The position numbers and the translations under genes were made by a program. This document shows positions 438 to 31,114 of a stretch of 64,000 nucleotides of DNA, in pieces (position 1 is the stretch's first letter; each line of letters opens with the position of its first letter). The notes below the pieces were generated by a model, which saw only the letters and a list, made by a program, of their open reading frames with translations, was not told the origin of the DNA and did no database searches. The DNA comes from Paenimyroides aestuarii (GTDB lineage: Bacteria > Bacteroidota > Bacteroidia > Flavobacteriales > Flavobacteriaceae): assembly GCF_024628805.1 (NCBI RefSeq), contig NZ_CP102382.1, forward strand, positions 682,001 to 746,000, in the 5' to 3' direction.

Positions 438-465
438 CAGAAAGAAAAGCACAATCGCACAACAA

Positions 466-591
466 GGTATTGCCAAAAGCGGGGCTAAAGTGCACATTTA
501 GAAATTTTTGCATATATTTGGCTTGAGGTATTTCTATTAGGCTTGGGAGCAAAAATCCCCGCCTTCGGCAATACCCGAACCGTTAGCTGAC
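466..591. repeat. cassette junction 1: attC-like imperfect palindrome
   Basis: GGTATTGCC (466-474) pairs with GGCAATACC (567-575), and GCGGGG (479-484) pairs with CCCCGC (557-562), with a 4-nt internal loop on each side. The right end is GTTAGCTGAC (582-591), which is repeated inverted just after the next gene (1799-1808). Two paired boxes per arm around a long apex, plus an end box matching the downstream gene's own 3' flank, is the architecture of an integron attC site. The end box does not strictly match the classical GTTRRRY core. Confidence 0.6.
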
Positions 592-625
592 ATATTTTCC
601 GAAAAGAACGACCAAACAAGTTTTT

Positions 626-1795
626 ATGAATTTAAAGGAACTAAAAGAACAAATTTCAACAACAATTGAGAATTTAAAAGACCACGGAAAATTTCCAAAA
701 GAAAATAATCTTTATGATTATAAAATGGAACTAAATTTTTATGGTTTAACAGAATGTATCGAAATTTTTATGAGGAATTTCGCAAAAGACATTTTATCTT
801 TCTCAAACTCAAATGGTGGAATACTTTTACTCGGAATAAAAGAAGATAAAAAGACTGGAACTTTGGAAGACATTGGATTAGATGTGAAAAATATTGACCT
901 TCTAAATCAAATAGATTTGAGTTTAGTTTGTCAGCAATTTAACAAAGTTGCTAAAGTCGGTGTAGATTTAGATTTGCAATCATTTCAAATAGGAACAAGA
1001 AATTTCTTTTATCTTCTAATTGAAAAACAAAATCAAATAATAATTCCAATTAATGATTTTAAAGAGTATAATTTAAAAAAAGGAGAAATAATTTACAGGG
1101 TTTCTGGGAAAAACGAAGTTGCTAACTCAACCACTCAAGATTTTAACAAATTTATACAAATCAAAGCAAACGAAAAGAACAAAGAGTTTATGGAAATATG
1201 GTCAAAACTTTTACCAGAAATGTTTGACATAAATCCAAGAGAAGTTTTAATTCTTAATCCGAAAAACAATACTGTTTACGGATATAACTCAAAAGAAAAC
1301 TTGCTTTCAAGTAGCGAAATTGACATTGACCAAACTGAAAACGGTATATTTAATATAATTCTTAATGCGATTTCTGCGGGAGATATTGGGAAGATTTCAA
1401 ACGATGAAGGTAAACCAATTTATAAAATCGTAGGAGAATTAAAGAGCAAAACTCCAAGAGATTTTATCTATTTTTCATCTTTATTTGACAAAATAAAAGC
1501 TCAATCAAATTATAATTTATCTTCCAATCAATTAAAATGTGTGTTTAAACATTTAAATTGGATTACAGACGAGAAACTTCCAATTGAAAATCCCGACGAA
1601 ACAAAAATAAACAATGAATTTAATCAGTTTATTTGGGTTGAAACACTTGATAAAACGCATAAAATTGTATTTTCTGAAAATGCTATTAACCCAATTGTCG
1701 AAGCAATAAATGATAACAAAAATCACAATTCCATTTTTGGAAAATCATTACAAAACAAAACAGTGAAATCAAAAACAAAAACAAAGACCAAATAA
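626..1795 (+). CDS. AlbA_2 (Schlafen-like) putative nucleic-acid-binding domain protein
   Basis: This 389-residue protein has, at about residues 30-150, the pattern of the AlbA_2 domain: an acidic/basic start (YDYKMELNF), then AKDILSFSNSNGGILLLGIK at 53-72, which matches the family's A.aNt.GG.l..GV core. AlbA_2 proteins are generally annotated as putative regulators or nucleic-acid-binding proteins; several relatives sit in defence or accessory loci. The C-terminal half is unrecognised and ends in a repetitive Lys/Thr tail. The ATG lies 35 bp after the junction box, and the TAA ends 4 bp before the inverted copy of that box, so the gene fills a cassette-like unit on its own. Function cannot be assigned. 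Confidence 0.7.
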   Translation: MNLKELKEQISTTIENLKDHGKFPKENNLYDYKMELNFYGLTECIEIFMRNFAKDILSFSNSNGGILLLGIKEDKKTGTLEDIGLDVKNIDLLNQIDLSLVCQQFNKVAKVGVDLDLQSFQIGTRNFFYLLIEKQNQIIIPINDFKEYNLKKGEIIYRVSGKNEVANSTTQDFNKFIQIKANEKNKEFMEIWSKLLPEMFDINPREVLILNPKNNTVYGYNSKENLLSSSEIDIDQTENGIFNIILNAISAGDIGKISNDEGKPIYKIVGELKSKTPRDFIYFSSLFDKIKAQSNYNLSSNQLKCVFKHLNWITDEKLPIENPDETKINNEFNQFIWVETLDKTHKIVFSENAINPIVEAINDNKNHNSIFGKSLQNKTVKSKTKTKTK

Positions 1796-1798
1796 TAC

Positions 1799-1935
1799 GT
1801 CAGCTAACAAGGGTTTTGCGTCAGGCGGGCTGAAATGCAAAATTCAACGGCAGTTTTTCAATTAAACTTTAGTAATAATATCGGCTTTCGTGCTTCGATT
1901 GCCCCATCATCGCAAAGATTCTGTGTTAAAAACCT
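1799..1935. repeat. cassette junction 2, left arm: attC-like repeat cut off by an IS element
   Basis: It begins with GTCAGCTAAC (1799-1808), the exact inverse of the box at 582-591, followed by a stretch (about 1811-1900) that recurs with clear similarity at 3960-4010 and 13,815-13,900 (core TTTTGCGTCAGGCGGGCTGA). A TTTGCG...CGCAAA pairing closes part of the palindrome. The expected right-hand end box is not next to it; a GTTACCGGC box appears only at 3257, beyond the IS110-type element. Confidence 0.55.
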
Positions 1936-1970
1936 AATGTTTTTTTATAATTTTGTAAAAATTAAAGCGA

Positions 1971-3026
1971 CTACAAGTTAGCTTCTATAGGGTGGAAATC
2001 TATTTGAGTTTTCGCCCTATTTTCTTCAAAGTTGACTTCGTAGAATGTTTTGGTTTTATATAAAATATACGTTAATTCTAATAATTTTCTCTGCACAGCT
2101 ACTAACCCCTTCATTTTAACTCCTGTTTTGTTTACTATGCGTTGATACAATTCACGGTGCTCTTGATTCAATTTTACTGCCGTCATTGATGGAAAATGAA
2201 GTGTTTTGCGTAAATTCCTGTTGCCCTTTTTGCTGATTCTTGCCTTGCCTTTTACCGATGTGCCTGATTGCTTTTCCCTAATATCCAACCCGGCATAACT
2301 GGTTAACTGTTTTTTGTTTCTTATCAGTTCAAAACCATTGGTTTCTGCTAAAATTGCAATGGCTGTGGCTTTTCCCACGCCTGGTATGCTACTCATATAC
2401 TGTATTGCTTGGCTAGCTTCTTGGCTGTTTTCTACCTCTTTCAACATATCGGTGTTGATTTCTTTTTCTTGTTTTTCCAGCAATGAAATTCTTGCTTTCA
2501 ATCGTTTGATTGTTCGTATATTGGGCATAGCTTCTGCCTTTTCTGCATGAAGCTGGTTCATACAAACCACGCGCTCGCTGATTACTTGGTTTTTCTCCCT
2601 GCTCAACTGCTGAAGCTCTTTGTAAACCTTATTTGACGGTTGCCACTCTTATAATTTTCTGCTTAATCCAAATTGTGCAATGGCGATGGAGCAACTTTTA
2701 TCGGTGATGGTTTTAATGTCTAAAGTACGCATGAAATTGCTGATTTTAGTAGGCAATACAATCACTACTTTTTCTCCTTTATCATAAAGAAAGTAAGCAA
2801 AACGCTCGTGATAAACTCCCGTAGACTCCATCACAAAAAAAACTTCTACGTCTTTAGATTTCGTTTTATCGACCCATTGTAATAGCGATTTAAAACCTTT
2901 TTCGTTATTACTGAAAACCTGATAATTTTTTGTTTCCGTTGTTAAATCTTCATGGAGGGTTCCTATAGCTACAACCAGCTCATCTTGTGCAACATCAACT
3001 CCCAAAACTTGTTTTAATATCTTCAT
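1971..3026 (-). pseudogene. IS110-family transposase interrupted by one in-frame stop
   Basis: Reading leftwards from ATG at 3026, the N-terminal DEDD RuvC-like domain (GVDVAQDE near residue 11, VMESTG near residue 68, ITDK near residue 110) runs to QFGLSRKL and meets TAA at 2649-2651. The same frame then continues without change (EWQPSNKVYKELQQLSREK) into a complete Transposase_20 domain (SIPGVGKATAIAILAE, SYAGLDIREKQSGTS) up to the stop at 1971. Only one codon is wrong, so a 351-residue enzyme was recently intact. At the position of the usual second Asp of the DKxD motif the sequence has Cys (DKSC); I am not sure whether that is normal for this subgroup. Internal restarts could give a 211-residue fragment, which would not be active. 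Confidence 0.8.
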
Positions 3027-3132
3027 ACGTTGTAAATTTTATTAAAGCAAAATCTTCCTTCGTTTTGTCTCCAAATTGTTATTCAAGATGTTTATAAAAC
3101 TCTTTACATTCTGTTCAAACTCTAAAAGAAGT

Positions 3133-3206
3133 AAAGGAATGAGGATGGTTCTTTGCGAGAATATATCTTTTAGATTATTAAGCCCCGAATGTTCTCTCAT
3201 TCCTTT
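3133..3206 (-). ncRNA. possible bridge-RNA stem upstream of the IS110 transposase
   Basis: AAAGGAATGAG (3133-3143) is perfectly complementary to CTCATTCCTTT (3196-3206), with an additional inner GAGAA/TTCTC pairing (3157-3161/3192-3196). It lies in the long non-coding region upstream of the transposase, where IS110-group elements encode their bridge RNA. The position and strong stem are seen; the RNA identity is inferred. Confidence 0.25.
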
Positions 3207-3284
3207 TGCTTTTTATCTGCAAATTTATTACTTTGCAAACATAGGAGCCCCGAAACGTTACCGGCAAGCTTAGACAACGACACA

Positions 3285-3956
3285 GTGGACAACAAAATTG
3301 AAACATATTCGACACTTTGGAACTTGGTTGACATTGACCAGACCGACCACAAGTTGAAGGACATTGCAACTCTGTTTTTGAACGCAATGAACGACTGGCC
3401 TACACAAGACCAAAGCAAAATTGCTAACTTTGTTCACGAACTCAAAGAGTATTTCGGTTCACCGCTGACAGTTGAGAAAATAGACGCAAGAAAATTCAAC
3501 GGACAAAATGCTTGGCACGTTGAAGCGGGAAGTTCGATAGCTGAACTCATTGACACTTCGACAAGATTTTGCAATGAAAGTAACTTCGACAATATCTTAA
3601 AAAACATTCTTGACTTCTACGAACAAGAGTTTAATAAGACAGACTTTATTGCAAAACTTACATATAGGACGACCGAACAAGGCGGTAGACAAACTCCTTT
3701 AAAAAGCGGTTACAGACCACAAGTAAAGTTTGACTTTACTGAAATGCAGACTTCGGGACAACAAACATTTATTGATAAAGAAATAGTTTTCCCTGGCGAC
3801 ATAGTTGACGCAAAAATCAAAATATTATCTCTAGACTATTTTGCAGGTAGCTTGACAGAAGGAATGCATTTTGAATTTAGAGAAGGTGTGACAGTTATTG
3901 GAACAGGAGAAATAAAATATATTGTAAACGACAAACTAGAAAAAGCCAGCCGGTAA
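3285..3956 (+). CDS. stand-alone EF-Tu domain 3-like (C-terminal domain) protein
   Basis: The last 100 residues match the third domain of elongation factor Tu: FIAKLTYRTTEQGGRQTPLK, SGYRPQVKF, a FPGD turn, then GMHFEFREG and TVIGTGEI, in the same order as the EF-Tu beta-barrel that contacts tRNA. No GTPase G1-G4 motifs are present, so this is not an elongation factor; NCBI-style names for such proteins are 'EF-Tu C-terminal domain-related'. The first half is unrecognised. An ATG exists at 3189 in the same frame, but it lies to the left of the cassette end box at 3257-3265, inside IS-associated sequence, so I prefer GTG at 3285. The TAA stop is embedded in the inverted box 3949-3957, as happens in compact cassettes. 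Confidence 0.6.
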   Translation: MDNKIETYSTLWNLVDIDQTDHKLKDIATLFLNAMNDWPTQDQSKIANFVHELKEYFGSPLTVEKIDARKFNGQNAWHVEAGSSIAELIDTSTRFCNESNFDNILKNILDFYEQEFNKTDFIAKLTYRTTEQGGRQTPLKSGYRPQVKFDFTEMQTSGQQTFIDKEIVFPGDIVDAKIKILSLDYFAGSLTEGMHFEFREGVTVIGTGEIKYIVNDKLEKASR

Positions 3957-4093
3957 CACGGGTTTTGCGTAAGGCGGGCTGACGTGTAAAATCGGGCGAC
4001 AGTTTTTCAAATTCCCCACCAGCACCAATACGTAAACCGATATAGCGAAATCTGCTTAAGCTTTTTTAGCTAGATTCGGGGCGTTGTCGGACA
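3949..4093. repeat. cassette junction 3: attC-like repeat
   Basis: It begins with GCCGGTAAC (3949-3957), the perfect inverse of GTTACCGGC at 3257-3265, so the EF-Tu-like gene is enclosed by its own end boxes. The body (CGGGTTTTGCGTAAGGCGGG and following) is related to junctions 2 and 9. The right end reads GTTGTCGGACATTTTAGA (4083-4100), which matches GTTGGCAGGCATTTTAGA at 7729-7746 at 15 of 18 positions, so the end boxes form a family. Confidence 0.55.
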
Positions 4094-4140
4094 TTTTAGA
4101 TACCCTGCTAAAGACAAATTTACGAAAAAATCAATATATT

Positions 4141-4157
4141 TGCGTAAATTATACGCA
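4141..4157. promoter_or_regulatory. NrtR-type operator, copy 1
   Basis: TGCGTAAATTATACGCA is an inverted repeat (TGCGTA/TACGCA around 5 bp) ending 8 bp before the regulator's ATG. The same 17-mer pattern, TGCGTAWWWTWTACRCA, occurs twice more before the next gene. This strongly suggests autoregulation by the Nudix regulator. Confidence 0.65.
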
Positions 4158-4165
4158 TATATAAA

Positions 4166-4858
4166 ATGGAATTAAAACAGAATATTAAACTAGCAGTAGA
4201 TGCAATAGTTTTTGGATATGCCGACAACAAGTTGAATGTTTTGCTGATTAAACAAAAATTTGGCATATTAAAAAACCAATGGGCTTTGGTTGGAGGTTTT
4301 GTTAAGGACAACGAAACCTTGAATGACGCAGTAAACAGAGAACTTAAAGAAGAAGCAGGAATAAAGGTGAATTATTTAGAACAACTCTACACATTTGGCG
4401 ATAATATTAACCGTGACCCAAGATTTCGAGTAGTTTCAGTCGCATATTTTGCACTGATAAACTCTACAAAGCTAATATTGAAAGCCGACAGCGATGCAGA
4501 AGAGGCTAAGTGGTTTCCAATAAATAACCTTCCCGAATTGGCTTTTGACCACAAAGAAATTATAGCTACTGCACAGCTTAGATTACAAAGTAAACTTACC
4601 TATCAACCTATTGGTTTCGATTTGCTTCCAAAAGAGTTTTTGTTTTCTGAACTTGAAAATCTTTATTGCACCATATTGAATAAAGAAATAGACCGTAGAA
4701 ATTTCAGAAAAAAAATTTTGAGTTATGATATAATTGAGGAAACGGAAAAATATGGTAATAAAATAAAAGGCAGACCAGCCAAACTTTTTAGATTTAATAA
4801 ACAGAAATATAGCAAATTACATAAGAGCGGATTTTTGTTCGAGATTAATTTTGCGTAA
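4166..4858 (+). CDS. nrtR: NrtR-family Nudix transcriptional regulator of NAD metabolism
   Basis: The N-terminal half is a Nudix domain with a complete box (GGFVKDNETLNDAVNRELKE followed by EAGI, residues about 43-66); the C-terminal 80 residues have the winged-helix character of NrtR (KEIDRRNFRKKIL, a GRPAKLFRF wing). NrtR proteins bind ADP-ribose or related products through the Nudix fold and repress NAD biosynthesis genes. The context supports this fully: the next genes are PRPP-synthetase-like, HAD and nicotinamide phosphoribosyltransferase, and a 17-bp inverted repeat lies directly before this gene and before the operon. The length, 230 residues, is normal. An intact Nudix box means hydrolase activity cannot be excluded. 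Confidence 0.85.
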   Translation: MELKQNIKLAVDAIVFGYADNKLNVLLIKQKFGILKNQWALVGGFVKDNETLNDAVNRELKEEAGIKVNYLEQLYTFGDNINRDPRFRVVSVAYFALINSTKLILKADSDAEEAKWFPINNLPELAFDHKEIIATAQLRLQSKLTYQPIGFDLLPKEFLFSELENLYCTILNKEIDRRNFRKKILSYDIIEETEKYGNKIKGRPAKLFRFNKQKYSKLHKSGFLFEINFA

Positions 4859-4868
4859 TATTTACACA
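4852..4868. promoter_or_regulatory. NrtR-type operator, copy 2
   Basis: TGCGTAATATTTACACA overlaps the stop codon of the regulator gene and lies 51 bp upstream of copy 3, matching the shared pattern with one weaker arm. Two spaced copies before one promoter would allow cooperative or looped binding. Confidence 0.5.
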
Positions 4869-4902
4869 AATTATTTGGCAGTTAAAATATTTAATCTAAC
4901 TT

Positions 4903-4919
4903 TGCGTATAATTTACACA
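4903..4919. promoter_or_regulatory. NrtR-type operator, copy 3
   Basis: TGCGTATAATTTACACA ends 12 bp before the start of the PRPP-synthetase-like gene, at a position where a bound repressor would block the promoter or initiation. It differs from copy 2 by two central bases. Confidence 0.6.
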
Positions 4920-4931
4920 AAATAAAAAACT

Positions 4932-5774
4932 ATGATATTGAATTTAGACAAAGATTTCAAGCCCAAACAAGGCGAAGAAATACAGTTTGAAAACTTTATT
5001 TTTTCAGGTGGTGAGCCACACATCAAAATAAATCCAAATTTTAATGTATCTGAAAGCATTACAATAACTCATAGACTTAACTCATTTAATGATTTAGGGT
5101 TGTTGTGTTTGGCAGTTGATGCTTTGAAAAGGATGGGAGCAAAATTAGAAAATTTGATTATTCCCTATTTTCCAGCAGCAAGGCAAGACAGAGTTATGAT
5201 AAAAGGCGAACCCCTTTCAGTAAAAGTTTATGCCGATATTATCAATACTTTCAATTTCAAAAAAGTTGTTGTTTTTGATGCTCATTCAGAAGTTACGCTA
5301 GCAGTTTTGAATAATTGCGAAGTGATTACCAATCATAAATTTATTCAGCAAGTAATTCAAGCAATTGGAAGCGAAGTTTTATTGATTTCCCCAGATGGTG
5401 GAGCTTTGAAAAAAATCTATAAAGTGTCCGAATTTTTGGGCGGAGTTGAAGTGGTGGAATGCAGTAAAAGTCGTAATGTAAAAACAGGTAAGCTAACAGG
5501 TTTTAAAGTATATGCTGATGATTTGCAAGGTAAAGATTGTTTGATAGTTGATGACATTTGTGATGGTGGTGGAACTTTCATTGGATTAGCCGAAGAACTA
5601 AAAAAGAAACATGCAGGAAAATTGTATTTGGCAGTTAGCCACGGTATTTTCAGCAAAGGTTTTCATGATTTAAAATGTTTTGAACGAATTTTTACTACTG
5701 ATTCGATCAAGAACATAGAAAGTGATTGTTTAACTCAAATAAAGATTAACAATGGACTTTTATCTCAACACTAA
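4932..5774 (+). CDS. PRPP-synthetase-like protein of the NAD salvage operon
   Basis: This 280-residue protein has the ribose-phosphate pyrophosphokinase layout: IPYFPAARQDR (ATP-binding flap, housekeeping form FGWARQDR), FDAHSEVT where housekeeping Prs has DLHADQ, LISPDGGALKK, and the PRPP loop IVDDICDGGGTF. It is shorter and clearly divergent from the housekeeping Prs at 42,797-43,738 (313 residues). It probably makes PRPP for the nicotinamide phosphoribosyltransferase two genes downstream. An alternative known from phage NAD-restoration operons is a Prs homologue that pyrophosphorylates ADP-ribose; sequence alone does not decide. It overlaps the next gene by 23 bp, indicating translational coupling. 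Confidence 0.8.
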   Translation: MILNLDKDFKPKQGEEIQFENFIFSGGEPHIKINPNFNVSESITITHRLNSFNDLGLLCLAVDALKRMGAKLENLIIPYFPAARQDRVMIKGEPLSVKVYADIINTFNFKKVVVFDAHSEVTLAVLNNCEVITNHKFIQQVIQAIGSEVLLISPDGGALKKIYKVSEFLGGVEVVECSKSRNVKTGKLTGFKVYADDLQGKDCLIVDDICDGGGTFIGLAEELKKKHAGKLYLAVSHGIFSKGFHDLKCFERIFTTDSIKNIESDCLTQIKINNGLLSQH

Positions 5775-6183
5775 AAAATCCTCGAACAGATTAATTGAGG
5801 AATATAATAAATACCGCACTTTGGTTATAGCTTTCGATTTTGACGATACCGTTTATGATTTTCACAAAAAAGGAAGAATCTACCATGATGTAATCAAACT
5901 TTTACAAGATTTAAAATCAATAAACTGCTACCTGATTTGTTGGACAGGACAAGAAGATGCCAACTTTGTAAAAGGTTATTTTAAAGAAAATAATATTCCT
6001 TTTGATGCTATTAATGAAAACCCACCTTTCCATAAATCAACAAGCAGAAAAATATATGCAAATGCATATTTAGACGATAGAGCAGGTTTAAAGCAAGTAT
6101 TTGACGAATTAAATAATTTAGTATTAACAACCAAAACAAAAAAATATGAATCCTTTACTATTAACAGATGGTTACAAAGTTGA
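5752..6183 (+). CDS. HAD-like phosphatase of the NAD salvage operon
   Basis: A 143-residue small HAD-fold protein. Motif I is FDFDDTVYD (residues about 29-37), motif II is CWTGQE (about 63-68), and the terminal acidic motif is AYLDDRAG (about 103-110). There is almost no cap domain. It overlaps both neighbours (23 bp and 38 bp), so the three proteins are made as a unit. The substrate is unknown; in a nicotinamide salvage operon a nucleotide or sugar phosphate is likely. It could alternatively be a 5'-nucleotidase or polynucleotide-kinase-phosphatase-type domain. Confidence 0.65.
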   Translation: MDFYLNTKKSSNRLIEEYNKYRTLVIAFDFDDTVYDFHKKGRIYHDVIKLLQDLKSINCYLICWTGQEDANFVKGYFKENNIPFDAINENPPFHKSTSRKIYANAYLDDRAGLKQVFDELNNLVLTTKTKKYESFTINRWLQS

Positions 6184-7594
6184 TCATAGAAGACAATACC
6201 CTAACGGAACGACATTGGTTTACTCAAATTGGACCCCCAGAAAAAGTCGTATTGAAGAAGTAGATGATGTTGTGCTTTTTGGACTGCAATATTTTATTAA
6301 AAAATACATTTTAGAAGACTTTGAAACCTATTTTTTCAAACAACCAAAAGAAAAAGTAGTTGCCGAATACTCAAGACGCATAAATAATTATTTGGGTGAA
6401 AATCAAGTTGGCACTAAACACATTGAAGATTTACACGATTTGGGATATATACCGATGGTAATAAAGGCATTGCCCGAAGGTGTAAGCGTACCTGTGAGAG
6501 TACCTATGTTTACCATGTACAACACCCTGCCCGAGTTTTTTTGGCTGACTAATTATTTTGAAACTTTGGTTTCGGCGGTGGTTTGGATGCCTTGCACATC
6601 TGCAACTATTGCCAAACAATACCGAAAAGTATTAGACAAATTTGCTCTTGAAACTTCATCAATCCCTGAATTCGTAGATTGGCAAGGTCACGATTTTTCA
6701 ATGAGAGGGATGGCAGGAATAGAGGCAAGTTTAATTTCAGCTAGTGGACACCTTTTGAGCTTTAGCGGAACAGATACCATTCCTGCAATCTCATTATTAG
6801 AAAAGTATTACAATGCTGATTCTGAAAAAGAACTAATTGGTGGTTCAGTTTCAGCCACCGAACACAGCGTAATGTGTATGGGAACTATTGAAGATGAAAT
6901 TGGAACTTTCCAAAGATTGATTTGCGATGTTTACCCAAAAGGCATTGTTTCAATAGTTTCTGACACTTGGGATTTATGGAAAGTACTTACCGAATATTTA
7001 CCCAAACTTAAAAACGAAGTATTAAACAGAGAAGGAAAAGTAGTTATTCGACCCGACAGTGGCGATCCTGTTGACATTATTTGTGGCAATCCAAATGGTA
7101 AAAATGACAATGAGAAAAAAGGCGTAATAGAATTGCTTTGGGAAACATTTGGTGGTACAACAAACGCTAAAGGATTCAAAGAATTAGACCCCCATATTGG
7201 TGCAATTTATGGCGACAGCATTACAGTGGCAAGAGCAACTCAAATATGTGAACGACTTAAAAAGAAAGGTTTTGCTTCAACAAACGTAGTTTTGGGAATT
7301 GGTTCATACACTTACCAATACAATACGAGAGATACTTTTGGTTTTGCCATGAAAGCAACTTACGGTGAAGTAAACGGACAAGGCAGAGAAATCTTCAAAG
7401 ACCCTGTTACTGACGATGGAACTAAAAAATCTGCAAAAGGATTAATGAAAATCGAACTCGAAAATGGCACTTACAAACTTATAGACCAAGCAACCTGGGA
7501 ACAAGAAAAACAAGGTGAATTGAAAGAAATTTTCAGAGACGGAGAATTATTGATTGACCAAACATTGGCAGAAATTAGAAAACGGATAAAATAA
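6146..7594 (+). CDS. nadV: nicotinamide phosphoribosyltransferase (NadV/NAMPT)
   Basis: This enzyme joins nicotinamide and PRPP to give nicotinamide mononucleotide. The 482-residue length is typical of the family. Positions corresponding to the human NAMPT active site are visible in order: FSMRGMAGIEAS, FSGTDTI, SATEHSVM (catalytic His), VIRPDSGDP, AIYGDSITV and GIGSYTYQYNTRDTFGFAMK. All key residues are present, so it should be active. It overlaps the HAD gene by 38 bp and is the last gene of the NrtR-controlled operon, followed by an attC-like palindrome. A nicotinamide ADP-ribose-transferring relative is possible given the unusual Prs partner, but the default reading is NadV. Confidence 0.9.
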   Translation: MNPLLLTDGYKVDHRRQYPNGTTLVYSNWTPRKSRIEEVDDVVLFGLQYFIKKYILEDFETYFFKQPKEKVVAEYSRRINNYLGENQVGTKHIEDLHDLGYIPMVIKALPEGVSVPVRVPMFTMYNTLPEFFWLTNYFETLVSAVVWMPCTSATIAKQYRKVLDKFALETSSIPEFVDWQGHDFSMRGMAGIEASLISASGHLLSFSGTDTIPAISLLEKYYNADSEKELIGGSVSATEHSVMCMGTIEDEIGTFQRLICDVYPKGIVSIVSDTWDLWKVLTEYLPKLKNEVLNREGKVVIRPDSGDPVDIICGNPNGKNDNEKKGVIELLWETFGGTTNAKGFKELDPHIGAIYGDSITVARATQICERLKKKGFASTNVVLGIGSYTYQYNTRDTFGFAMKATYGEVNGQGREIFKDPVTDDGTKKSAKGLMKIELENGTYKLIDQATWEQEKQGELKEIFRDGELLIDQTLAEIRKRIK

Positions 7595-7597
7595 ATA

Positions 7598-7740
7598 CGG
7601 CAGGCAAAGGGTATTTGAGTAATTGAAGCAGAGAAGGAAGTGATTCAACATTTGGAATTCTATTGACCTTTTCTGTTGAATTTGAGCTGACGGAATCCTA
7701 ATTTCCCAACTATGCAAATACTTCAACGTTGGCAGGCATT
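7598..7740. repeat. cassette junction 4: attC-like palindrome
   Basis: GTATTTG (7611-7617) pairs with CAAATAC (7715-7721) around an apex of about 100 nt, and the right end is a GTTGGCAGGCAT box (7729-7740) similar to the start of the NAD cassette at 4083. GGCAGGCA occurs in the same orientation at both ends (from 7599 and from 7731), which is not the inverted relationship expected of an intact junction, so this one may be a recombinant or degraded copy. Confidence 0.45.
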
Positions 7741-7846
7741 TTAGAACGACACATCAAAAATGAATCAACTTGAAAAAGAAGTTGAACTGTCCGTATAGAA
7801 ATAAATAGAAGAAAAATTAAGAAAGAACGCACAATACAGACAACCC
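7741..7846. other. cassette remnant without a usable ORF
   Basis: After the end box a start codon at 7760 opens only 12 codons before a TAG. There is no longer ORF before the repeated unit at 7847. This looks like the first bases of a truncated cassette. Confidence 0.35.
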
Positions 7847-8002
7847 TTGCACAATTCCCATTTTTCAGAAAACATATAGAATTTCAAACCTCGTTTAAGC
7901 TTTTTTAAGCGAGGTTTTTTTTGAAAAGTATTTTGAAAGGGAATTTTTTTGTACTTGTATAAAATAAGATTCTATTTTTTTTCTATTTTTGAGTGGTGCA
8001 AC
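7847..8002. repeat. ORF-less repeated unit, copy 1 (TTGCAC...GTGCAA ends)
   Basis: A 156-bp unit that recurs at 12,231-12,376 with most bases conserved, including an internal terminator hairpin and the final CTATTTTTGAGTGGTGCAAC. It starts with TTGCAC and ends with its inverse GTGCAA. The sequences outside the two copies are unrelated. It has no ORF. Confidence 0.7.
7886..7925 (+). terminator. rho-independent terminator inside the repeated unit
   Basis: AAACCTCG...CGAGGTTT with extended TTTAA/TTAAG pairing (7886-7898/7905-7917) is followed by a T run. It would end transcripts coming from the NAD operon side before the exosortase genes. Confidence 0.7.
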
Positions 8003-8010
8003 TAGCGAAT

Positions 8011-8135
8011 GGGGGTATGCAAGTTTGCAGAAGAAATATTAATAAATTTTTTTGTATAATTAAACAATTGATATTTTAATCAGTTTCTGTGCTAAAAATC
8101 CTCATCTGCAAAAAGCCGTTTTATAGTACCTCACA
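8011..8135. repeat. cassette junction 5: attC-like palindrome before the exosortase genes
   Basis: TTTGCAG (8024-8030) pairs with CTGCAAA (8106-8112). The right arm GTGCTAAAAATC (8089-8100) is identical to the right arm at 11,597-11,608 and close to that of junction 1 (GCAAAAATCCCC). The arms are weaker than in junction 1. Confidence 0.4.
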
Positions 8136-8143
8136 TATAAAAA

Positions 8144-8683
8144 ATGACAGTACAAACAAACAAGAACATACCATATTATTTGACAGCAGTTGGATTTTTC
8201 ATATTGCTGAAATTTGGTTTTACACTTGCTGACAATAACGACTTAACCTTTCTTCTCAATCCGACCGACAAACTTTTTGGACTTTTGACAGGCTCACATT
8301 CCATTTATCTCTCCGAAAGTGGTTATTTCCACGAAAACTTAAACATCATTATTGACAAATCTTGCTCGGGTTTTAATTTTTGGGTTTTGTGCTTCCTTCT
8401 TTTTACTTACTTGACAGTAAAACACTTTGACAAGACTTTAAGCAAAATCCTTACAATTCCGACTGCTTTAATTGGAGCTTATCTACTGACGATATTTGTA
8501 AATACATCAAGGATTTTTGCCTCTATCATTGTACAGACTCAGACAAAAGGCATTTTTCTGAACCAACAACATATCATACACGAAGCTATTGGCATAATTA
8601 CGAATCTGACTTTCCTGATTTTAGCTTACATACTAATTGAGAAATTATTAATCCACAAACGATACAATGCGAAATTTGCTTAA
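8144..8683 (+). CDS. xrtK: exosortase K (XrtK), membrane transpeptidase-like sorting enzyme
   Basis: A 179-residue polytopic membrane protein with the exosortase catalytic set: Cys74 in IIDKSCSGFNFW, Arg123 in VNTSRIF and His146 in IIHEAIGI, each at the membrane edge. It is much shorter than classical XrtA, as expected for type K. Exosortases recognise C-terminal sorting signals and process substrates at the inner membrane. The immediately overlapping next gene (17 bp) ends in an MSEP tail, the known dedicated substrate of type K enzymes, which makes the assignment strong. Confidence 0.88.
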   Translation: MTVQTNKNIPYYLTAVGFFILLKFGFTLADNNDLTFLLNPTDKLFGLLTGSHSIYLSESGYFHENLNIIIDKSCSGFNFWVLCFLLFTYLTVKHFDKTLSKILTIPTALIGAYLLTIFVNTSRIFASIIVQTQTKGIFLNQQHIIHEAIGIITNLTFLILAYILIEKLLIHKRYNAKFA

Positions 8684-11492
8684 TCCGAAATGGCTATTTG
8701 TTATAAACACGCTACCGTTGGTCGTGTTGTTCTTCCTTTTCTTTGGTCAGTTTAATATCATAAAAACATTATTGGAAGATGACAATATCCAACTTTGGAA
8801 AACTTTTGGCTTTTCGTTGGGAGTACTTGGTTTACTGAATTTTTCTTATGCTGTTTATTTGACTTTAAAGAAAAAGAATGTTTCTGTATGGTTTGGTTTA
8901 ATAGCTCTACTTTGCTACATACCATTCATTTACCTATACGGCTACCATTTAGACAAAATCATTCCATTTTCAATCCCTCAATGGATGGTTTCGGGCAACA
9001 TCTTTTTATATGTTGGGACATTTCTAATGCCGACACTAGCCTATTCATTATTCGTTTTGGTTTCTCATTTTACACCTGAAAGCAAAGAACATAAAGCTTG
9101 GATAAACTTTTTAATTGCAATTGGAATTCCGATTGCAGGTTACTTATTTACTCAAATCATTCTTCCATTATGGCAACCATTTGACAGGGACTTTAGCGTT
9201 CACGCAATAGTGATTCTTGTTATTACTGCTACTTTAGTTTTCCTCTTTTTCTTAATTCGGGGCGCTTTTATACTAGCTACCAAAAAGGCAGAAGTATGGC
9301 AGAAATACCAATTAGCTTGGAAAATTCCAATTGCTATAGTGCTTCCATTAATAGGATTAGCAGTAAACAACGGACACCTATTTAATAATTTCGGACCGAG
9401 TGATTCAGGGATTTTTGGAGATTTCAATAATGCTTGGTTTTATATTCTTGCTGTTGTTAATGGCATATTGGTTTGCTTACCCAACCTTGAAAACAAACTA
9501 TATCGACTATTTGTGTTCATCGGAAGAAGTGTAACATTTGCCTACACATTCTATTTCTTTTTAGTGTTTCTTCCCTTTTTGCCTTTATCAGTAATTGCAA
9601 TTATTGCAATAGGGACAGGATTTTTAATGCTAACCCCTTTACTACTTTTCGTTATTCACATCAACGAGCTTTCAAAGGATTTTACTTACCTAAAAACACA
9701 GCTTTCCAAAAAAATCATCATCGGAATTTCGTTATTGAGCTTTTTGGTAATTCCCGCTTTTATCACCATAACATATTTAAAAGACAAAAGCGTTTTAGAT
9801 GAAACCCTTTCATATTTATATAACCCTGATTACTCAAAACAATACAACATTGATAAAGTTTCGCTTCAAAAAACGCTTAATGTTATAAAAAGCCATAAAG
9901 ACCACAGAGATAGCAGGGGTGGAATATTTGGCAATGGAATTCCCTATTTGTCTTCGTATTTCAATTGGTTGGTTATGGACAACCTTACTTTGTCTGATTC
10001 TAAAATCAACACCGTTGAAAAAATATTTTTTGGCAACACTTCTTTTGATTTACGACCTGAAAATATCCAAAACGACAATGTTCAGTTAAGTAATATTTCC
10101 ACAAACAGCACTTACGATAAATCTCAAAATGCTTGGAAAAGTTGGGTTGACTTGGAAATAACCAACAAAAGTGGAAACACTTGGTTTTCTGAATATGCCA
10201 CAACGATTAATTTACCTGAAGGTTGTTGGATTAGCGATTACTACCTTTATGTTGGTGACGTAAAAGAGCCAGGTATTTTAGCAGAGAAAAAATCAGCAAT
10301 GTGGATATTTTCACAAATCCGAAATGAAAATAGAGACCCGGGAATTCTATATTATTTGACAGGGAATAAAGTTGCATTTAGAGTATTTCCTTTTGCAAAA
10401 GATGAAGTGAGAAAAACGGGAATAGAGTTCTTACATAAAGAGCCAATTACGCTCAACATTGACAACAACATAATTGAATTAGGAAACATTGAAGAAACCA
10501 TTTATGAAAAGATTGAAACTGAAAATATAGCCTACGTTTCAACCCGACAAAAACAAAAATTGAAAACGGTCAAACGTGAACCCTATTTTCATTTTTTGGT
10601 TAACGCTTCTAAAAACCAAAACAGTAATTCAACCGATTTCATTAAAAGAATTGAACAAGTTATTGAAGCCAATCAACCACTTTCGGAAAACGCAAAAATC
10701 AGTTTTGTAAACAGCTATGTAACTACCACTACTTTAGATAAATATTGGAAAGGAGAATATAAAAATCAAACTTTTGAAGGCGGTTATTATTTAGACAGAG
10801 CAATAAGAACAACCTTGTTTAATGCTTATCAAGATAAATCGAAAACATACCCTGTAATTGTAGTAGTGACAGACAGTATTGAAAATGCTGTTTTAGACAA
10901 AGATTTTGCAGACTTAAAATTTACTTTTCCTGAAAGCGACTTGTTTTTCAATCTTGACAAGAAAGGAAATTTAAGAGAGCATTCTTTGACAGAAAACCCA
11001 ATAAAAGAACTGCCTGAAATTCTAAGAGAATGTATGTTTTGTGAAACTGTTTTGGAATACAAGCTAACGGACAATTCTGTTGCCTATTTAGCGAACAATA
11101 ATCAACCAAGCATCATTTTGAGAAAGGATATTTTTGATGTTTCCGAAACAGAAATTAAAGAAAAGAATTGGCAATCTGCCTTGACAATGCAGGGGCAATG
11201 GATTTCGCAAATCCTGCATCCTGAAATTTCAGACAAAGAATGGTTGAATATGGTAAAATACAGTTTCATATCAAAAGTAATGACACCTGTAACATCATAT
11301 TTAGTGGTAGAGAACGAAGCACAAAAAGCAATGCTGAAAAAGAAACAAGAACAGGTTTTATCAGGTAACAAATCCTTAGACCTTGGAGAAGATACTCAAA
11401 GGATGAGCGAACCAAGCTTGATTTTGTTGATAATTCTTCTTGGACTAATATTATGGTTCAGAGAAAAACGAAAAAAACAATTGACCGAATAA
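8667..11492 (+). CDS. MSEP-CTERM protein, dedicated substrate of exosortase K, with VIT-like domain
   Basis: This 941-residue protein starts with about ten hydrophobic segments (residues 1-385), then a large soluble part. Residues about 500-600 resemble a VIT domain (INLPEGCWISDYYLYVGDVK, then KKSAMWIFSQI), and YPVIVVVTDSIENAV near 730 resembles a degenerate von Willebrand A strand; no MIDAS motif is obvious. The end carries MSEPS, a hydrophobic helix (LILLIILLGLILW) and a basic tail (REKRKKQ), the tripartite MSEP-CTERM sorting signal. A one-to-one enzyme/substrate pair in a translationally coupled operon is the known arrangement for exosortase K. The biological role of the substrate is not known. 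Confidence 0.88.
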   Translation: MRNLLNPKWLFVINTLPLVVLFFLFFGQFNIIKTLLEDDNIQLWKTFGFSLGVLGLLNFSYAVYLTLKKKNVSVWFGLIALLCYIPFIYLYGYHLDKIIPFSIPQWMVSGNIFLYVGTFLMPTLAYSLFVLVSHFTPESKEHKAWINFLIAIGIPIAGYLFTQIILPLWQPFDRDFSVHAIVILVITATLVFLFFLIRGAFILATKKAEVWQKYQLAWKIPIAIVLPLIGLAVNNGHLFNNFGPSDSGIFGDFNNAWFYILAVVNGILVCLPNLENKLYRLFVFIGRSVTFAYTFYFFLVFLPFLPLSVIAIIAIGTGFLMLTPLLLFVIHINELSKDFTYLKTQLSKKIIIGISLLSFLVIPAFITITYLKDKSVLDETLSYLYNPDYSKQYNIDKVSLQKTLNVIKSHKDHRDSRGGIFGNGIPYLSSYFNWLVMDNLTLSDSKINTVEKIFFGNTSFDLRPENIQNDNVQLSNISTNSTYDKSQNAWKSWVDLEITNKSGNTWFSEYATTINLPEGCWISDYYLYVGDVKEPGILAEKKSAMWIFSQIRNENRDPGILYYLTGNKVAFRVFPFAKDEVRKTGIEFLHKEPITLNIDNNIIELGNIEETIYEKIETENIAYVSTRQKQKLKTVKREPYFHFLVNASKNQNSNSTDFIKRIEQVIEANQPLSENAKISFVNSYVTTTTLDKYWKGEYKNQTFEGGYYLDRAIRTTLFNAYQDKSKTYPVIVVVTDSIENAVLDKDFADLKFTFPESDLFFNLDKKGNLREHSLTENPIKELPEILRECMFCETVLEYKLTDNSVAYLANNNQPSIILRKDIFDVSETEIKEKNWQSALTMQGQWISQILHPEISDKEWLNMVKYSFISKVMTPVTSYLVVENEAQKAMLKKKQEQVLSGNKSLDLGEDTQRMSEPSLILLIILLGLILWFREKRKKQLTE

Positions 11493-11502
11493 ATAAAGTA
11501 CG

Positions 11503-11641
11503 TGTAGTAACATCACTTATAAGAAAGTCTGGCGTTTCGTGCTTCGTAGGACAAGAAAGTGCTTAGCCAAAATGCAATTTTTCGGTTGAACTATTGTGCT
11601 AAAAATCTCCGCCTTCGCAAAGTGGTAAAACGCTATACAAC
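11503..11641. repeat. cassette junction 6: attC-like palindrome
   Basis: CACTT (11,514-11,518) pairs with AAGTG (11,620-11,624); the right arm GTGCTAAAAATCTCCGCC (11,597-11,614) is shared with junctions 1 and 5. The right end box near 11,630 (GCTATACAACAT) is only roughly the inverse of GTATAACATC just after the next gene (12,213-12,222). Confidence 0.4.
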
Positions 11642-11696
11642 ATATTGTGACTATATTTGAAAACACAAGTATTATATAATTAAACCAAAAATTGAC

Positions 11697-12218
11697 TTGG
11701 AAGAATTAAACTTTTATACAAACAAATTATCATCGTTTTTACTTTTATTTATATCTACAACGTTTGTTGTTTTCGGAATATTTCTCGGTGACAAAATGGT
11801 TGATTTTGAAGAAAAACCTTTTAAGAGTGTAATTCTTGTTTTAATTTTTTTATTAATTACTTTTGGAATTGTTTTATCAATTTTATTGTTGGGAAGAAAA
11901 AAACCACTTTTAGTAATTACTGATAAACAAATAATAATTCATAGTGTTTTAACTTCATCTAAAACTATTGAATTTAACAATGTGAAATCATTTTTTATAG
12001 TTAATAACTATTATTACGGAATTAAGACAAACAGACAAATATTTATTGAACTGAAAAAGCCAACAGAAAATTTTTCAAATATGTGGTTCTATAAATTTCT
12101 CAGCAAGATAAGTAAACCTTTAGCGAACGCACAATATTCTATTTATAAAGATTTTCTAAATATCAAGCAACAAAAACTACTCGAAATATTAAACAGAAAA
12201 ATGAAAAGCGTCGTATAA
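11697..12218 (+). CDS. two-helix membrane protein, possibly STM3941 family
   Basis: 173 residues with two hydrophobic segments (about 12-30 and 43-66) and a soluble C-terminal part that looks like a PH-like bacterial domain (LLVITDKQIIIHSVLTSSKT, then IEFNNVKSFFIV). The start is TTG; no in-frame ATG precedes the first helix. The arrangement resembles STM3941-type proteins, but I am not certain. It is alone between two cassette-like junctions, and the stop is followed directly by a TATAACATC box. Confidence 0.5.
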   Translation: MEELNFYTNKLSSFLLLFISTTFVVFGIFLGDKMVDFEEKPFKSVILVLIFLLITFGIVLSILLLGRKKPLLVITDKQIIIHSVLTSSKTIEFNNVKSFFIVNNYYYGIKTNRQIFIELKKPTENFSNMWFYKFLSKISKPLANAQYSIYKDFLNIKQQKLLEILNRKMKSVV

Positions 12219-12230
12219 CATCTGCAACCC

Positions 12231-12376
12231 TTGCACAATTCCCATTTATCAGAAAACATATAGAGTTTCAAACCTCGTTTAAAGCCTTATTAAGCGAGGT
12301 TTATTTTTTGAAAAGTATTTTTTTTGTACTTGCATAAAGTAAGATTCCATTTTTTTCTATTTTTGAGTGGTGCAAC
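12231..12376. repeat. ORF-less repeated unit, copy 2
   Basis: Second copy of the unit at 7847-8002, 146 bp, again bounded by TTGCAC (12,231-12,236) and GTGCAA (12,370-12,375). It lacks a 10-bp stretch of copy 1 and its hairpin (12,270-12,302) is followed by a poorer T run. The copies are direct repeats flanking 4.2 kb that includes the exosortase pair. With the next palindrome it fills the 307-bp gap before the following gene. Confidence 0.7.
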
Positions 12377-12480
12377 AAGAAAGTCGGTTTTGCAAAATCT
12401 CTTCCTAGGCAAGCTCGTAAAAAGAACTTCGCAAAACCGCCGCCTCAATGGCGTGCATTTGAAAAAAACGGTACGAAAAA
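12377..12480. repeat. cassette junction 7: hairpin after the repeated unit
   Basis: CGGTTTTGC (12,385-12,393) pairs perfectly with GCAAAACCG (12,431-12,439) around a 37-nt loop. The position, directly after the repeated unit and before the next ORF, matches junction 5. Confidence 0.4.
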
Positions 12481-12525
12481 CGAAAATTCAACTTTTATAA
12501 TCAAAATTTAAATTGAGAAAATTAA

Positions 12526-12924
12526 ATGAAATATATAATTAAATTATTTCTTATCATCTTACTTCTGACTTCTTGCAAATCGGACAACGAATAGTGGAAA
12601 ATTAAAAAAGTAGAACTTGGCAATGATAATAATGTATATTTAAAATCGTGGATTTGGGGATTAAGAGGAGAGCACTCTCGAACAATTATTTCGGAAAATG
12701 ATAAAAAAGACTATTCAGAAAATAAGGATATTGATATTGGGCAGTTCGTTGTAATTCGCTACAGAATTGAAAACGGAAAATTTATCTTATTGGAATCAAA
12801 CAATTACGGAATTCGAAAACAAATAAAAACTGAAATGGAAAATGTTGAAATACGATATGTTTCAGTTAATGAATTTCTGAATTCGAAAGAAAATTATGTA
12901 GAAAATTTTAAAAGTAAAAATTAA
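12526..12924 (+). pseudogene. small lipoprotein gene interrupted by one TAG
   Basis: ATG at 12,526 opens a clear lipoprotein signal (MKYIIKLFLIILLLTSCKSD, lipobox LTSC), then TAG at 12,592-12,594 (codon 23) interrupts. The same frame runs on for 109 codons with normal composition (WKIKKVELGNDNNVYLKSWI) to a TAA at 12,924. Only the single stop separates the secretion signal from the body. Either the gene is inactivated or the base is a consensus error. Family not recognised. Confidence 0.65.
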
Positions 12925-12942
12925 TAAACAAAAAAACGACAT

Positions 12943-13078
12943 GCTAACATTGTATAAAAATAATTACGGCTTAGTGCTTAATAAAAAATCATTAAGTATT
13001 TATAGTGCCTCATTTTTCTTCGGAAAATCCTTGCATACAAAACCGCAACTATTCTAATAAATAACCGTTATTGGCAAG
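12943..13078. repeat. cassette junction 8: attC-like palindrome
   Basis: GCTAAC (12,943-12,948) starts the unit, TTGTAT (12,950-12,955) pairs with ATACAA (13,035-13,040), and GTTATTGGCAAG (13,067-13,078) ends it. That end box resembles GTTACCGGCAAG at 3257. Confidence 0.45.
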
Positions 13079-13095
13079 TACATAACAACTACACA

Positions 13096-13788
13096 ATGAA
13101 AAAACAACTAACATTTTTATTTCTTACTTTGACAGTTTCTGTTTTTGGTCAAGTCAAACAATACAAAAATCCATCTGACTTTATACCAAAAGGATATGTA
13201 ATTCATAAGTATGAAGGCGGAATTTCATCTGGAAGTTGGGACGAAATAAAAGGAGACTTAAACAAAGATGGATTGGAAGATATTGTTCTTATTATTAAAG
13301 GAACTGACAAAAGTAAATTCATAAAAGATGAATACCGTGGAGAATTAGACCGAAATCGAAGAGGTATTATTGTACTATTTAACAAAGGAGCTTTTTACGA
13401 ATTAGCTTCAAAAAATTACGATTGTTTTTCTTCCGAGAATGAAGATGGCGGTGTATATTTTGCTCCTGAACTTTATGTTGAAATAAAAAAAGGAAAATTA
13501 CACATCAGTTATGGTCACGGAAGATACGGGAATTGGGGTTACACATTTAGGTATCAAAACGGAGATATGGAATTAATTGGTTACGACTCGTATTCAAGCC
13601 GTGGTCCAGTTCCGCAATATGAAGTGAGTATAAATTTTTTGACTAATAAGAAACTAACAAGAGATAATCTAAATAAATATGACGATGATGACTCCAATGT
13701 TAAATACAGAGAAACTTTGGAAAATATGAAAATAAAAAAAATTTTAAGATTATCTGAAATTAAGGATTTTGACGAACTTGAATTTTGA
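13096..13788 (+). CDS. exported protein with an FG-GAP-like calcium-loop motif
   Basis: 230 residues with a signal peptide (MKKQLTFLFLTLTVSVFGQV). GDLNKDGLEDIVLIIKG at about 53-69 is a DxDxDG-type loop as in FG-GAP or VCBS repeats, but only one repeat is visible. The remainder is unrecognised and rich in Tyr, Gly and Asp. It is the last cassette-like gene; the region beyond the following palindrome switches to minus-strand chromosomal genes. Confidence 0.6.
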   Translation: MKKQLTFLFLTLTVSVFGQVKQYKNPSDFIPKGYVIHKYEGGISSGSWDEIKGDLNKDGLEDIVLIIKGTDKSKFIKDEYRGELDRNRRGIIVLFNKGAFYELASKNYDCFSSENEDGGVYFAPELYVEIKKGKLHISYGHGRYGNWGYTFRYQNGDMELIGYDSYSSRGPVPQYEVSINFLTNKKLTRDNLNKYDDDDSNVKYRETLENMKIKKILRLSEIKDFDELEF

Positions 13789-13802
13789 TTAAAAAAACTG
13801 CT

Positions 13803-13942
13803 CTTAACGTATAAAACGTTTTGCGTCAGGCGGGCTGAAGTGCAAAATTCAACGGCAGTTATTCAATTAAAATTTAATAATAAATTCGGCTTTTGTGCCT
13901 CGAAATCCCTTACATGTCAAATCCGCCGCCACGTTAACATAT
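13803..13942. repeat. cassette junction 9: attC-like repeat at the end of the array
   Basis: TTAACGT (13,804-13,810) pairs with ACGTTAA (13,931-13,937). The body, including GTTTTGCGTCAGGCGGGCTG, is almost identical to junction 2 over roughly 80 bp, which makes these two the clearest sequence-related copies. No further cassette follows. Confidence 0.55.
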
Positions 13943-30981: not shown

Positions 30982-31003
30982 CAAGGGCAATTTTCAACTT
31001 CGC

Positions 31004-31114
31004 TTGCGTTAGGGATTGCAGCGGCATCCTTTTATCGGTGGCTGAGGCACTCAAAGCCCCGATAAAAGATATAGCGGAAAGCCCGACCGGCTCACTAAAA
31101 AGCCGGGAACGCCC
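31004..31114 (+). repeat. dispersed intergenic repeat with variable hairpin core, copy 1
   Basis: Conserved flanks (GCGTTAGGGATTGCAGCGGC on the left, AGCGGAAAGCCCGACC and GGGAACGCCC on the right) enclose a hairpin CTTTTATCGG/CCGATAAAAG (31,029-31,038/31,059-31,068). A second hairpin CCGGCT/AGCCGG follows. Related copies lie at 47,675-47,780 (inverted) and 54,021-54,177, with different but again self-complementary cores. It fills most of a 257-bp gap; no gene is visible there. Confidence 0.75.

Follow-up and report, generated by a model that had tools for sequence, protein, structure and literature searches.

Chromosomal (sedentary) integrons of the Vibrio type combine a recombinase gene beside an attI site with a one-directional array, hairpin attC sites, cassettes that start inside their own inverted box, and arrays lacking an integrase (CALIN). 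All these traits recur in Paenimyroides aestuarii, whose system differs from Vibrio-type integrons in a recombinase that lacks the ~42-residue IntI patch and carries an extra N-terminal stretch of ~80 residues (without a Pfam match), in an R box that reads GTTR, in nearly fully paired arms and in a promoter-like attI core, TATATTTG. Cassettes can also be inserted at non-attI sites (attG); here too arrays lie distant from the integrase gene, but unlike attG insertions they begin at a copy or variant of one attI core. The XerA-type recombinases (NF040815, ‘site-specific tyrosine recombinase/integron integrase’) are likewise patchless and give the best NCBIfam match to the present protein, which, unlike them, scores just under their cut-off (211.5 bits against 220, passed by two of the five relatives tested) and is linked to cassette arrays. 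Smyshlyaev et al. (2021, PMC8138268) describe an integron-like subgroup of simple tyrosine recombinases, of which the protein could be an insertion-less member; the excerpts consulted give no function for such members, which are here tied to attC arrays. The IntI patch has been reported as essential in integron integrases, and an excerpt of PMC7790495 holds that these enzymes passed from double- to single-strand recombination via the patch helix, intermediates being lacking. The analysis presented here points to an integron-type gene-capture system whose enzyme is very probably a 355-aa tyrosine recombinase without this patch.

The window, the whole 64-kb stretch of DNA that was analysed, holds the inner portion of one array in its first 14 kb. 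The sites located by the initial annotation at 466..13942 were confirmed, but the array starts ~2 kb upstream of the window, at an attI-like site at genome position 680016. The features are as follows.

454..591, + strand: intact attC, with R'' box ATCGCACAAC (454-463), stem arms and the R' box of the next cassette, GTTAGCTGAC (582-591)
582..1808, + strand: cassette with ORF 626-1795 for a Schlafen AlbA_2 domain protein, its two ends being exact inverses over 10 bp
1799..3256, + strand: attC of the Schlafen AlbA_2 cassette, right arm split by an IS110-family insertion (parts 1799-1917 and about 3248-3256)
about 1918..3247, - strand: IS110-family element interrupting junction 2, ends defined by comparing copies
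3257..3957, + strand: cassette whose ORF (EF-Tu C-terminal-like domain) stops at 3956, its two ends being exact inverses over 9 bp
3949..4082, + strand: degenerate attC, left arm in repeat family D1; next GTT at 4083
4166..7594, + strand: four-gene block of NrtR-type regulator, ribose-phosphate diphosphokinase (4932-5774), small ORF (5752-6183, no family match) and nicotinamide/nicotinate phosphoribosyltransferase
7602..7734, + strand: decayed attC, model match of 32.5 bits
8144..11492, + strand: exosortase K gene and MSEP-CTERM target gene (TIGR04287 and TIGR04286, above cut-off)
11505..11638, + strand: decayed attC, model match of 25.2 bits (E 0.003)
12942..13073, + strand: attC, model match of 53.7 bits
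13809..13939, + strand: decayed attC, the last of the array, model match of 31.8 bits; D1/D2 repeat

The two box pairs quoted by the initial annotation are exact (GTTAGCTGAC at 582-591 with GTCAGCTAAC at 1799-1808, and GTTACCGGC at 3257-3265 with GCCGGTAAC at 3949-3957), and the R'' box ATCGCACAAC is the inverse of the start of the upstream cassette, GTTGTGCGAT, at genome position 681642. A covariance model trained on 24 sites recovered six window junctions with E<=0.003, each of them on the + strand within 457-13939; of these six the training set held only 457-588 (98.4 bits), and the split attC was matched at 1802-1931 (53.5 bits). Weaker + strand matches lie at 8018 (E 0.03), 3951 (the degenerate attC, matched at 3951-4045 with 15.1 bits, E 0.39) and 3234 (E 0.52). 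Beyond 14 kb the first match is 47848-47904 at E = 1, and such palindromes are thus not equally frequent elsewhere in the 64 kb. No window junction matched an Rfam family at the gathering threshold. The distal junctions at 7602, 11505 and 13809 have low scores and yielded no box pairs, so that the nine palindromic junctions originally counted include decayed ones; the homologous left arms noted at junctions 2, 3 and 9 correspond to repeat family D1. The uniform orientation claimed for the array holds for the sites detected by the model and is broken by the IS110-family element. Its transposase frame is interrupted (ORFs 2649-3026 and 1971-2606, both with Pfam IS110 domains), and intact copies lie at genome positions 2182736-2183791 and 2193093-2194148, the domain being confirmed in one of them. 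All three IS110 copies are inserted at one point of an attC, and each of the six group II intron copies sits within an R'' box, directly behind its AA.

Across the 2.96-Mb genome the model gave 44 matches, 43 of them within five arrays; the palindromes are not equally common off the cassettes. The box logic was assessed on all 123 locus rows and 31 own-genome rows, using cassettes bounded by two covariance-model matches and requiring at least 6 of 7 variable bases to agree. The start of a cassette matched the inverse of its own end in 84 of 100 cassettes (17 of 21 in the own genome), as against 265 of 9900 non-own pairs (2.7%); some of the 16 that failed contain a missed attC or an IS, though not every failure is explained. 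A simple box-chain detector had returned chains of 3 to 8 cassettes near the recombinase but also plainly accidental ones (e.g. at loci L067, L056 and L059), and was for this reason replaced by the test with model-delimited cassettes. The attC can be folded as an imperfect hairpin with nearly invariant AAC/GTT ends, and compensatory double changes occur in 16 of 17 stem pairs (covariation 0.647, against 0.151 in shuffled and 0.06-0.10 in slid alignments). The R box reads GTTR in 94 of 96 readable boxes and GTTRRRY in four. Classical attC have extrahelical bases on the bottom strand; the present sites show top-strand mismatches, at one of which A stands in all 104 sites, opposite C in 94, and they retain unequal spacers.

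Cassettes are also shared between arrays. An Algibacter array and one of the own genome have 988 bp in common (89.6% identity), with breaks at GTT boxes and different neighbours, and loci L051 and L053 share 2389 bp (99.9%) starting at a cassette GTT. In the one cassette common to two own-genome arrays the homology begins at the GTT and breaks 33 bp into the attC rather than at the next GTT. Common cassettes between genera are few, with different neighbours and breaks at or near boxes, which is not the invariable gene order that would have spoken against the initial annotation. Together with the five arrays, box logic and covarying stems, this bears out the original proposal of a divergent integron-like cassette system in Bacteroidota.

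All five own-genome arrays start at TATATTTGNGT^GTT or a variant of it, and each of the three exact copies of TATATTTGNGTGTT in the genome is an array start. A longer form of this attI occurs six times in 246 genomes, all within four genomes that have the close recombinase clade (its reversed pattern, none), and is absent from five of nine close-clade genomes; if one mismatch is allowed, the attI 14-mer occurs at 16 places, no more often than the reversed control with 22. Read by eye, a core resembling TATATTTG lies between the recombinase gene and the first cassette in 12 of 12 close-clade loci. A box pair is present at the attI boundary in eight of them; in L052 and L054 GATGT stands behind the core instead of GTT, and no box pair was found at the boundary in L048 and L050. 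Three of the own-genome arrays distant from the recombinase adjoin a duplicated ssb gene. The 158-base ssb-attI module matched 22 of 150 genomes of the genus, the own genome included; since the other 21 matches are confined to the first 100 bases, the pairing of ssb with attI is seen only in the own genome.

The window array has indeed no integrase of its own, as first noted, but a recombinase adjoins another array 1.5 Mb away. The candidate enzyme is a 355-aa tyrosine recombinase encoded at genome position 2199491-2200558, divergent from the largest array, and is one of only three PF00589 proteins in the genome, the other two being Xer-like as judged by family match. The suggested search for a tyrosine integrase with the IntI patch thus yielded a recombinase without it: the protein spans 67 residues in a region that takes up 109-110 in four canonical IntI, and aligned to IntI4 (2A3V) it shows a gap at the patch. 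The relatives examined that bear arrays likewise lack it. In the recombinase tree the patch is found only in rows L137, L141, L142 and L147, and is missing from L126, L138 and L146; as its deep forks are weakly supported, no direction of gain or loss was drawn. Against TIGR02249 (cut-off 265) the protein scores 200.4 bits and five relatives 195-211, while four canonical IntI reach 439-488. R213, K238/K240/K241, H302, R305, H328 and Y337, invariant in the 12-row alignment (A1), are presumably the catalytic RKHRHY residues of tyrosine recombinases.

Sampling one genome per species, attC was detected in 147 of 296 Bacteroidota genomes and the recombinase family (E<=1e-40) in 93. Both were present in 81 genomes, attC only in 66, the recombinase only in 12 and neither in 137; the order sample (246 genomes, the best 11-13 attC candidates scored in each, with a model trained partly on genomes of the same sample) gave 64, 44, 6 and 132. 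The association corresponds to odds ratios of 14 (phylum) and 32 (order), all these counts ignoring kinship, and a recombinase match at this cut-off is absent from 66 of 147 and 44 of 108 attC-bearing genomes, respectively. An attC was found near the recombinase family in 17 of 20 chosen loci of the order, in 21 of 40 Bacteroidota loci and in none of 40 other loci of the genome_contigs set. Patchless relatives adjoin arrays in many genera. One array is located on a Chryseobacterium plasmid, and cassette cargo includes a cyclase of CBASS type together with a 2TM effector.

The sequences themselves show the box logic, the covarying stems, the conserved attI, the proximity and co-occurrence of the recombinase, and shared cassettes that break at or near boxes; cassettes presumably move by recombination. 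The patchless recombinase would excise cassettes and insert them at the attI-like sites TATATTTGNGT^GTT, probably cutting at G^TT. Recognition would most likely involve a single strand of the attC in folded form, probably the bottom strand. Its own array would be served in cis, and the four integrase-less arrays, that of the window included, in trans. The attI core resembles the consensus of the Bacteroidota -7 promoter element, and may act as a promoter, in which case a newly inserted cassette would lie directly behind it.

Dispersed palindromic repeats (REP-like or terminator-like) among co-oriented genes, with immobile cassettes, would also place long palindromes behind single genes in a single orientation. 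The cassette-specific inverse boxes already contradict this, and REP-like repeats and plain terminators were rejected on that ground; site clusters moreover begin at one conserved site type and homology between genera stops at or near boxes, making such repeats an extremely improbable explanation. It is also very unlikely that a canonical, patch-bearing IntI built the arrays and was later lost, leaving the patchless recombinase as a bystander. Integrase-less arrays are common according to the part of PMC9024848 at hand, the AAC...GTT logic is common to classical and present sites, and the Vibrio atypicus positive-control locus has box pairs too. However, none of the three recombinases of the genome bears a patch, as judged for the two Xer-like ones by family match, patchless relatives adjoin arrays in many genera and co-occur with attC, and in the close clade attI lies between the patchless gene and the first cassette. 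The attC model found no match at four canonical IntI loci, a weaker point as it was trained on Bacteroidota sites.

Hairpins of the CTX phage are recombined by XerCD (an excerpt of PMC7790495), and attC is present in genomes without a recombinase match, as would be expected if housekeeping XerC/XerD recombined the sites and the 355-aa protein were irrelevant. The recombinase gene nevertheless adjoins attI, and attC has a patchy distribution that follows the recombinase family (the odds ratios above), whereas Xer is, to our knowledge, near universal; a role for XerC/XerD is very unlikely. Recombination on double-stranded DNA or an extruded cruciform, rather than on a single bottom strand, is a doubtful but more serious possibility. 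The enzyme is Xer/XerA-like and has no patch for docking extrahelical bases, one-sided wobbles in stem pairs are about equal per strand (62 G-T and 55 A-C on top), and when whole sites, loop and all, are folded, the top strand is more stable in 25 of 104. Yet the arms, at least ~75 nt apart, covary, which requires a strand to fold, and for the arms alone the bottom strand is more stable in 93 of 104 sites.

Judged from its sequences, the system appears to be a variant of the integron type that is distinguished by a patchless integrase. No patchless Bacteroidota integron was found in open-access literature, preprints excluded, so that a printed description may exist; the portions consulted of PMC9668308, PMC8618304, PMC2426708, PMC9024848, PMC5458099, PMC7790495, PMC8352920, PMC8138268 and PMC5637372 contain none. 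For Bacteroidetes, IntegronFinder 2.0 lists a single complete integron, that of Salinibacter (PMC9024848), compared with attC in 147 of 296 genomes here, which suggests that surveys defining IntI by its patch overlook this family. It seems reasonably likely that single-strand hairpin capture of the integron type operates without the IntI patch, and that a large branch across Bacteroidota, absent from the surveys consulted and based on patchless recombinases, represents either a pre-patch state or an independent solution. A natural patchless family tied to attC arrays makes the claim of patch acquisition directly testable. Given the CBASS-type cyclase and 2TM effector among its cassettes, the system may be one of the main ways in which accessory genes are exchanged in the phylum.

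A covariance model of attC-type junctions (R1), trained on 24 junctions from the genome of Paenimyroides aestuarii and relatives, finds six + strand sites in the window at E<=0.003. They are confined to 457-13939, and five of them lie outside the training set. The two inverted box pairs and the arms common to several junctions described in the initial annotation are present where it had placed them, and the palindromes are concentrated in the array region, the first R1 match beyond 14 kb reaching only E = 1. Across the whole genome (2.96 Mb, one contig, window at 682001-746000), with 150 candidates scored, R1 identifies 44 sites at E<=0.1. Of these, 43 fall into five clusters, the 44th being an isolated partial match outside them.

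attC clusters found with R1 in the P. aestuarii genome
Cluster 1: 680.7-695.9 kb
Cluster 2: 1228.6-1238.1 kb
Cluster 3: 1734.3-1740.5 kb
Cluster 4: 2068.5-2078.0 kb
Cluster 5: 2174.6-2198.6 kb

The larger ORFs of the 2174-2198 kb array point away from the gene of a 355-aa tyrosine recombinase (2199491-2200558), except for IS110 insertions and a single small ORF within an attC. Near decayed junctions, the window also carries a 165-bp repeat (7841-8005 and 12225-12379, 86% identical) with a terminator-like hairpin, found at a third place at 1239.2 kb of the genome. Two Flavo-1 RNA matches lie at 30997-31092 and 54013-54095 of the window.

Over the training set of 24 sites, pairing is preserved by two-sided changes at 16 of 17 stem pairs. 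With the three AAC/GTT pairs included, 93.7% of cells pair vs 64.2% when shuffled; covariation scores 0.647, compared with 0.151 for shuffled and 0.06-0.10 for slid alignments. As the arms lie ~75 nt or more apart, this covariation points to attC arms that fold within one DNA strand. Among 104 sites aligned to R1, which were chosen by the model itself, AAC and GTT are almost invariant, and one unpaired A occurs in all 104, with a C opposite in 94. The bottom strand forms the more stable fold in 93/104 sites when the arms are taken alone; for arms plus loop, it is the top strand that folds more stably in 25/104. GTTR fits 94 of 96 readable boxes and GTTRRRY just four, in agreement with the misfit to the strict consensus noted from the start. 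Several attC loops (e.g. genome 2198398-2198597) contain, as read by eye, promoter-like TAnnTTTG/TAnnTTAG motifs, which may drive the next cassette. At a patchless recombinase locus of Rufibacter (L084) the sites are very short, with box-to-box gaps of 52-53 bp vs ~118.

The cassettes show the box logic of integrons when bounded by two consecutive R1 hits (all 123 hits around recombinase-family loci and the 31 of the own genome), box matching not being used for delimiting. In 84 of 100 cassettes (17/21 in the own genome alone), 6-7 of the seven bases that follow GTT agree with the inverse of that cassette's end, compared with 265 of 9900 pairs (2.7%) when a start is set against another cassette's end. 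Among the 16 cassettes that fail, some run across a missed attC or an insertion. Perfect 9-10-bp boxes occur in the five attI-proximal cassettes of the window array and no box pairs were found in the distal cassettes, the pattern predicted by entry of new cassettes at attI.

A TATATTTG-like core is seen by eye in the interval separating the recombinase gene from its first cassette in 12/12 loci of the close clade, the nearest relatives of the 355-aa recombinase. The boundary at this core is backed by a box pair in eight of them; at L048 and L050 a box pair was sought and not found, and in L052 and L054 the core is followed by GATGT, not GTT. The exact 14-mer TATATTTGNGTGTT has three copies in the genome (680005, 1741228, 2199343), each at an array start. 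One mismatch adds 13 further places, one of which (2081036) starts a fourth array, and since the reversed control is commoner at that level (22 vs 16 places) only the exact matches carry weight. A fifth array begins at the variant TATATATTTGT^GTT (1228112). The longer form TTCGTATATTTGNGNGTT has six copies in the 246 genomes of the order sample (reversed control 0), restricted to four of the nine genomes holding the close recombinase clade; one copy, in genome G120, lies away from its recombinase gene. The core resembles the Bacteroidota -7 promoter element, and a promoter-like core would put the first cassette behind a promoter. Upstream of the recombinase gene in L048-L050, L053 and L054, the likely promoter of that gene is seen by eye to lie between the halves of an inverted repeat (TTCGCATT...AATGCGAA type), which may be an operator.

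Short palindromic elements starting with GATGT, also read by eye, apparently take the place of a cassette but lack a starting GTT, and are possibly minimal non-coding cassettes or attC-specific MITEs.

GATGT elements
L052 and L054, after attI
Own genome, near 2176.8, 1738.1 and 2071.5 kb
Window, ~4030-4083

Three identical 107-aa ssb genes are each divergent from an attI, in a duplicated ssb-attI stretch (94-97% identical) whose end coincides with GTT when the window and 1741-kb copies are compared and lies near GTT in the others; a fourth ssb elsewhere in the genome is 39% identical.

Identical ssb copies (genome coordinates)
679509-679829
1227605-1227925
1741417-1741737

Three tyrosine recombinases are found in the genome by PF00589: one above the XerD cut-off, one nearest XerC with a score under the XerC cut-off, and the 355-aa protein, divergent from the 2174-2198 kb array. 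Aligned to V. cholerae IntI4 (2A3V), the latter has 18 residues vs 61 between two aligned segments. Its KDR-to-HxLR spacing is 67 residues (67-68 in seven array-bearing relatives, 109-110 in four canonical IntI), and it reaches 200.4 bits on TIGR02249, for which the cut-off is 265, with 195-211 for five relatives and 439-488 for four canonical IntI. The search for a patch-bearing integrase proposed at the outset has yielded an array-linked recombinase which, judged by its sequence, lacks the IntI patch. Passages in PMC9668308, PMC2426708, PMC8352920, PMC8138268 and PMC7790495 hold this patch to be defining or essential.

Signs of cassette movement are found between genera. A cassette with its attC is common to P. 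aestuarii and Algibacter onchidii (988 bp, 89.6%), the homology setting in five bases ahead of one GTT and stopping with the last base of the following GTT. Loci L051 and L053, of two genera, have 2389 bp in common (99.9%), a stretch that opens at a cassette GTT and closes shortly after another GTT, and L053 and L055 about one cassette (99.0%), ending near the boxes. A counter-case is a cassette in two own-genome arrays, where the match starts at GTT (plus four bases before) and stops 33 bp into the attC. Three IS110-family copies (Pfam) have an identical insertion point in the attC right arm, and a group II intron, identified by the end that its copies have in common, interrupts the R'' box behind AA in all six copies; RF02001 is assigned to four of these (Rfam, three loci). 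Elements targeting attC are known from classical integrons (IS1111-attC, group IIC-attC). The cargo of the recombinase-linked array, from which ten proteins were searched, includes a CBASS-type cyclase and a 2TM effector together in one cassette, and further matches are to a cation efflux protein and to one resembling NusG; several of the ten had no match. The window's cargo includes a Schlafen-type protein, an NAD-salvage block and an exosortase K pair.

A scan of genome contigs for recombinase relatives, of which the best 80 were kept (40 Bacteroidota by title), gives attC (E<=0.01) in the fetched stretch of 21/40 Bacteroidota loci and 0/40 others, four canonical IntI loci included, absence from a locus being weak evidence as the stretches differ in length. 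Among hand-picked order-sample loci, 17/20 have attC. Uncorrected for relatedness, the order sample holds 108 genomes with attC, 70 with the recombinase (E<=1e-40), 64 with both and 132 with neither, and the overlapping phylum sample (296 Bacteroidota genomes) 147, 93, 81 and 137, respectively. On a Chryseobacterium plasmid, a recombinase 43% identical is followed by six attC sites. In the close clade the array is divergent from the recombinase gene, as in class 1 integrons; around more distant relatives (L070, L075, L076, L083, L098, L102, L128) it lies mainly downstream, in the same direction as the gene.

Integrons in Bacteroidota are mentioned in passages of PMC8618304 and PMC9668308, and IntegronFinder 2.0 gives one complete Bacteroidetes integron, in Salinibacter (PMC9024848). 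No report of a patchless integron family was found in the portions of the open-access literature covered. The system differs from a classical integron in that the 355-aa recombinase fails the IntI test and the boxes fail the GTTRRRY test; as far as its site, cassette and attI features can be judged from sequence, it functions as an integron does.
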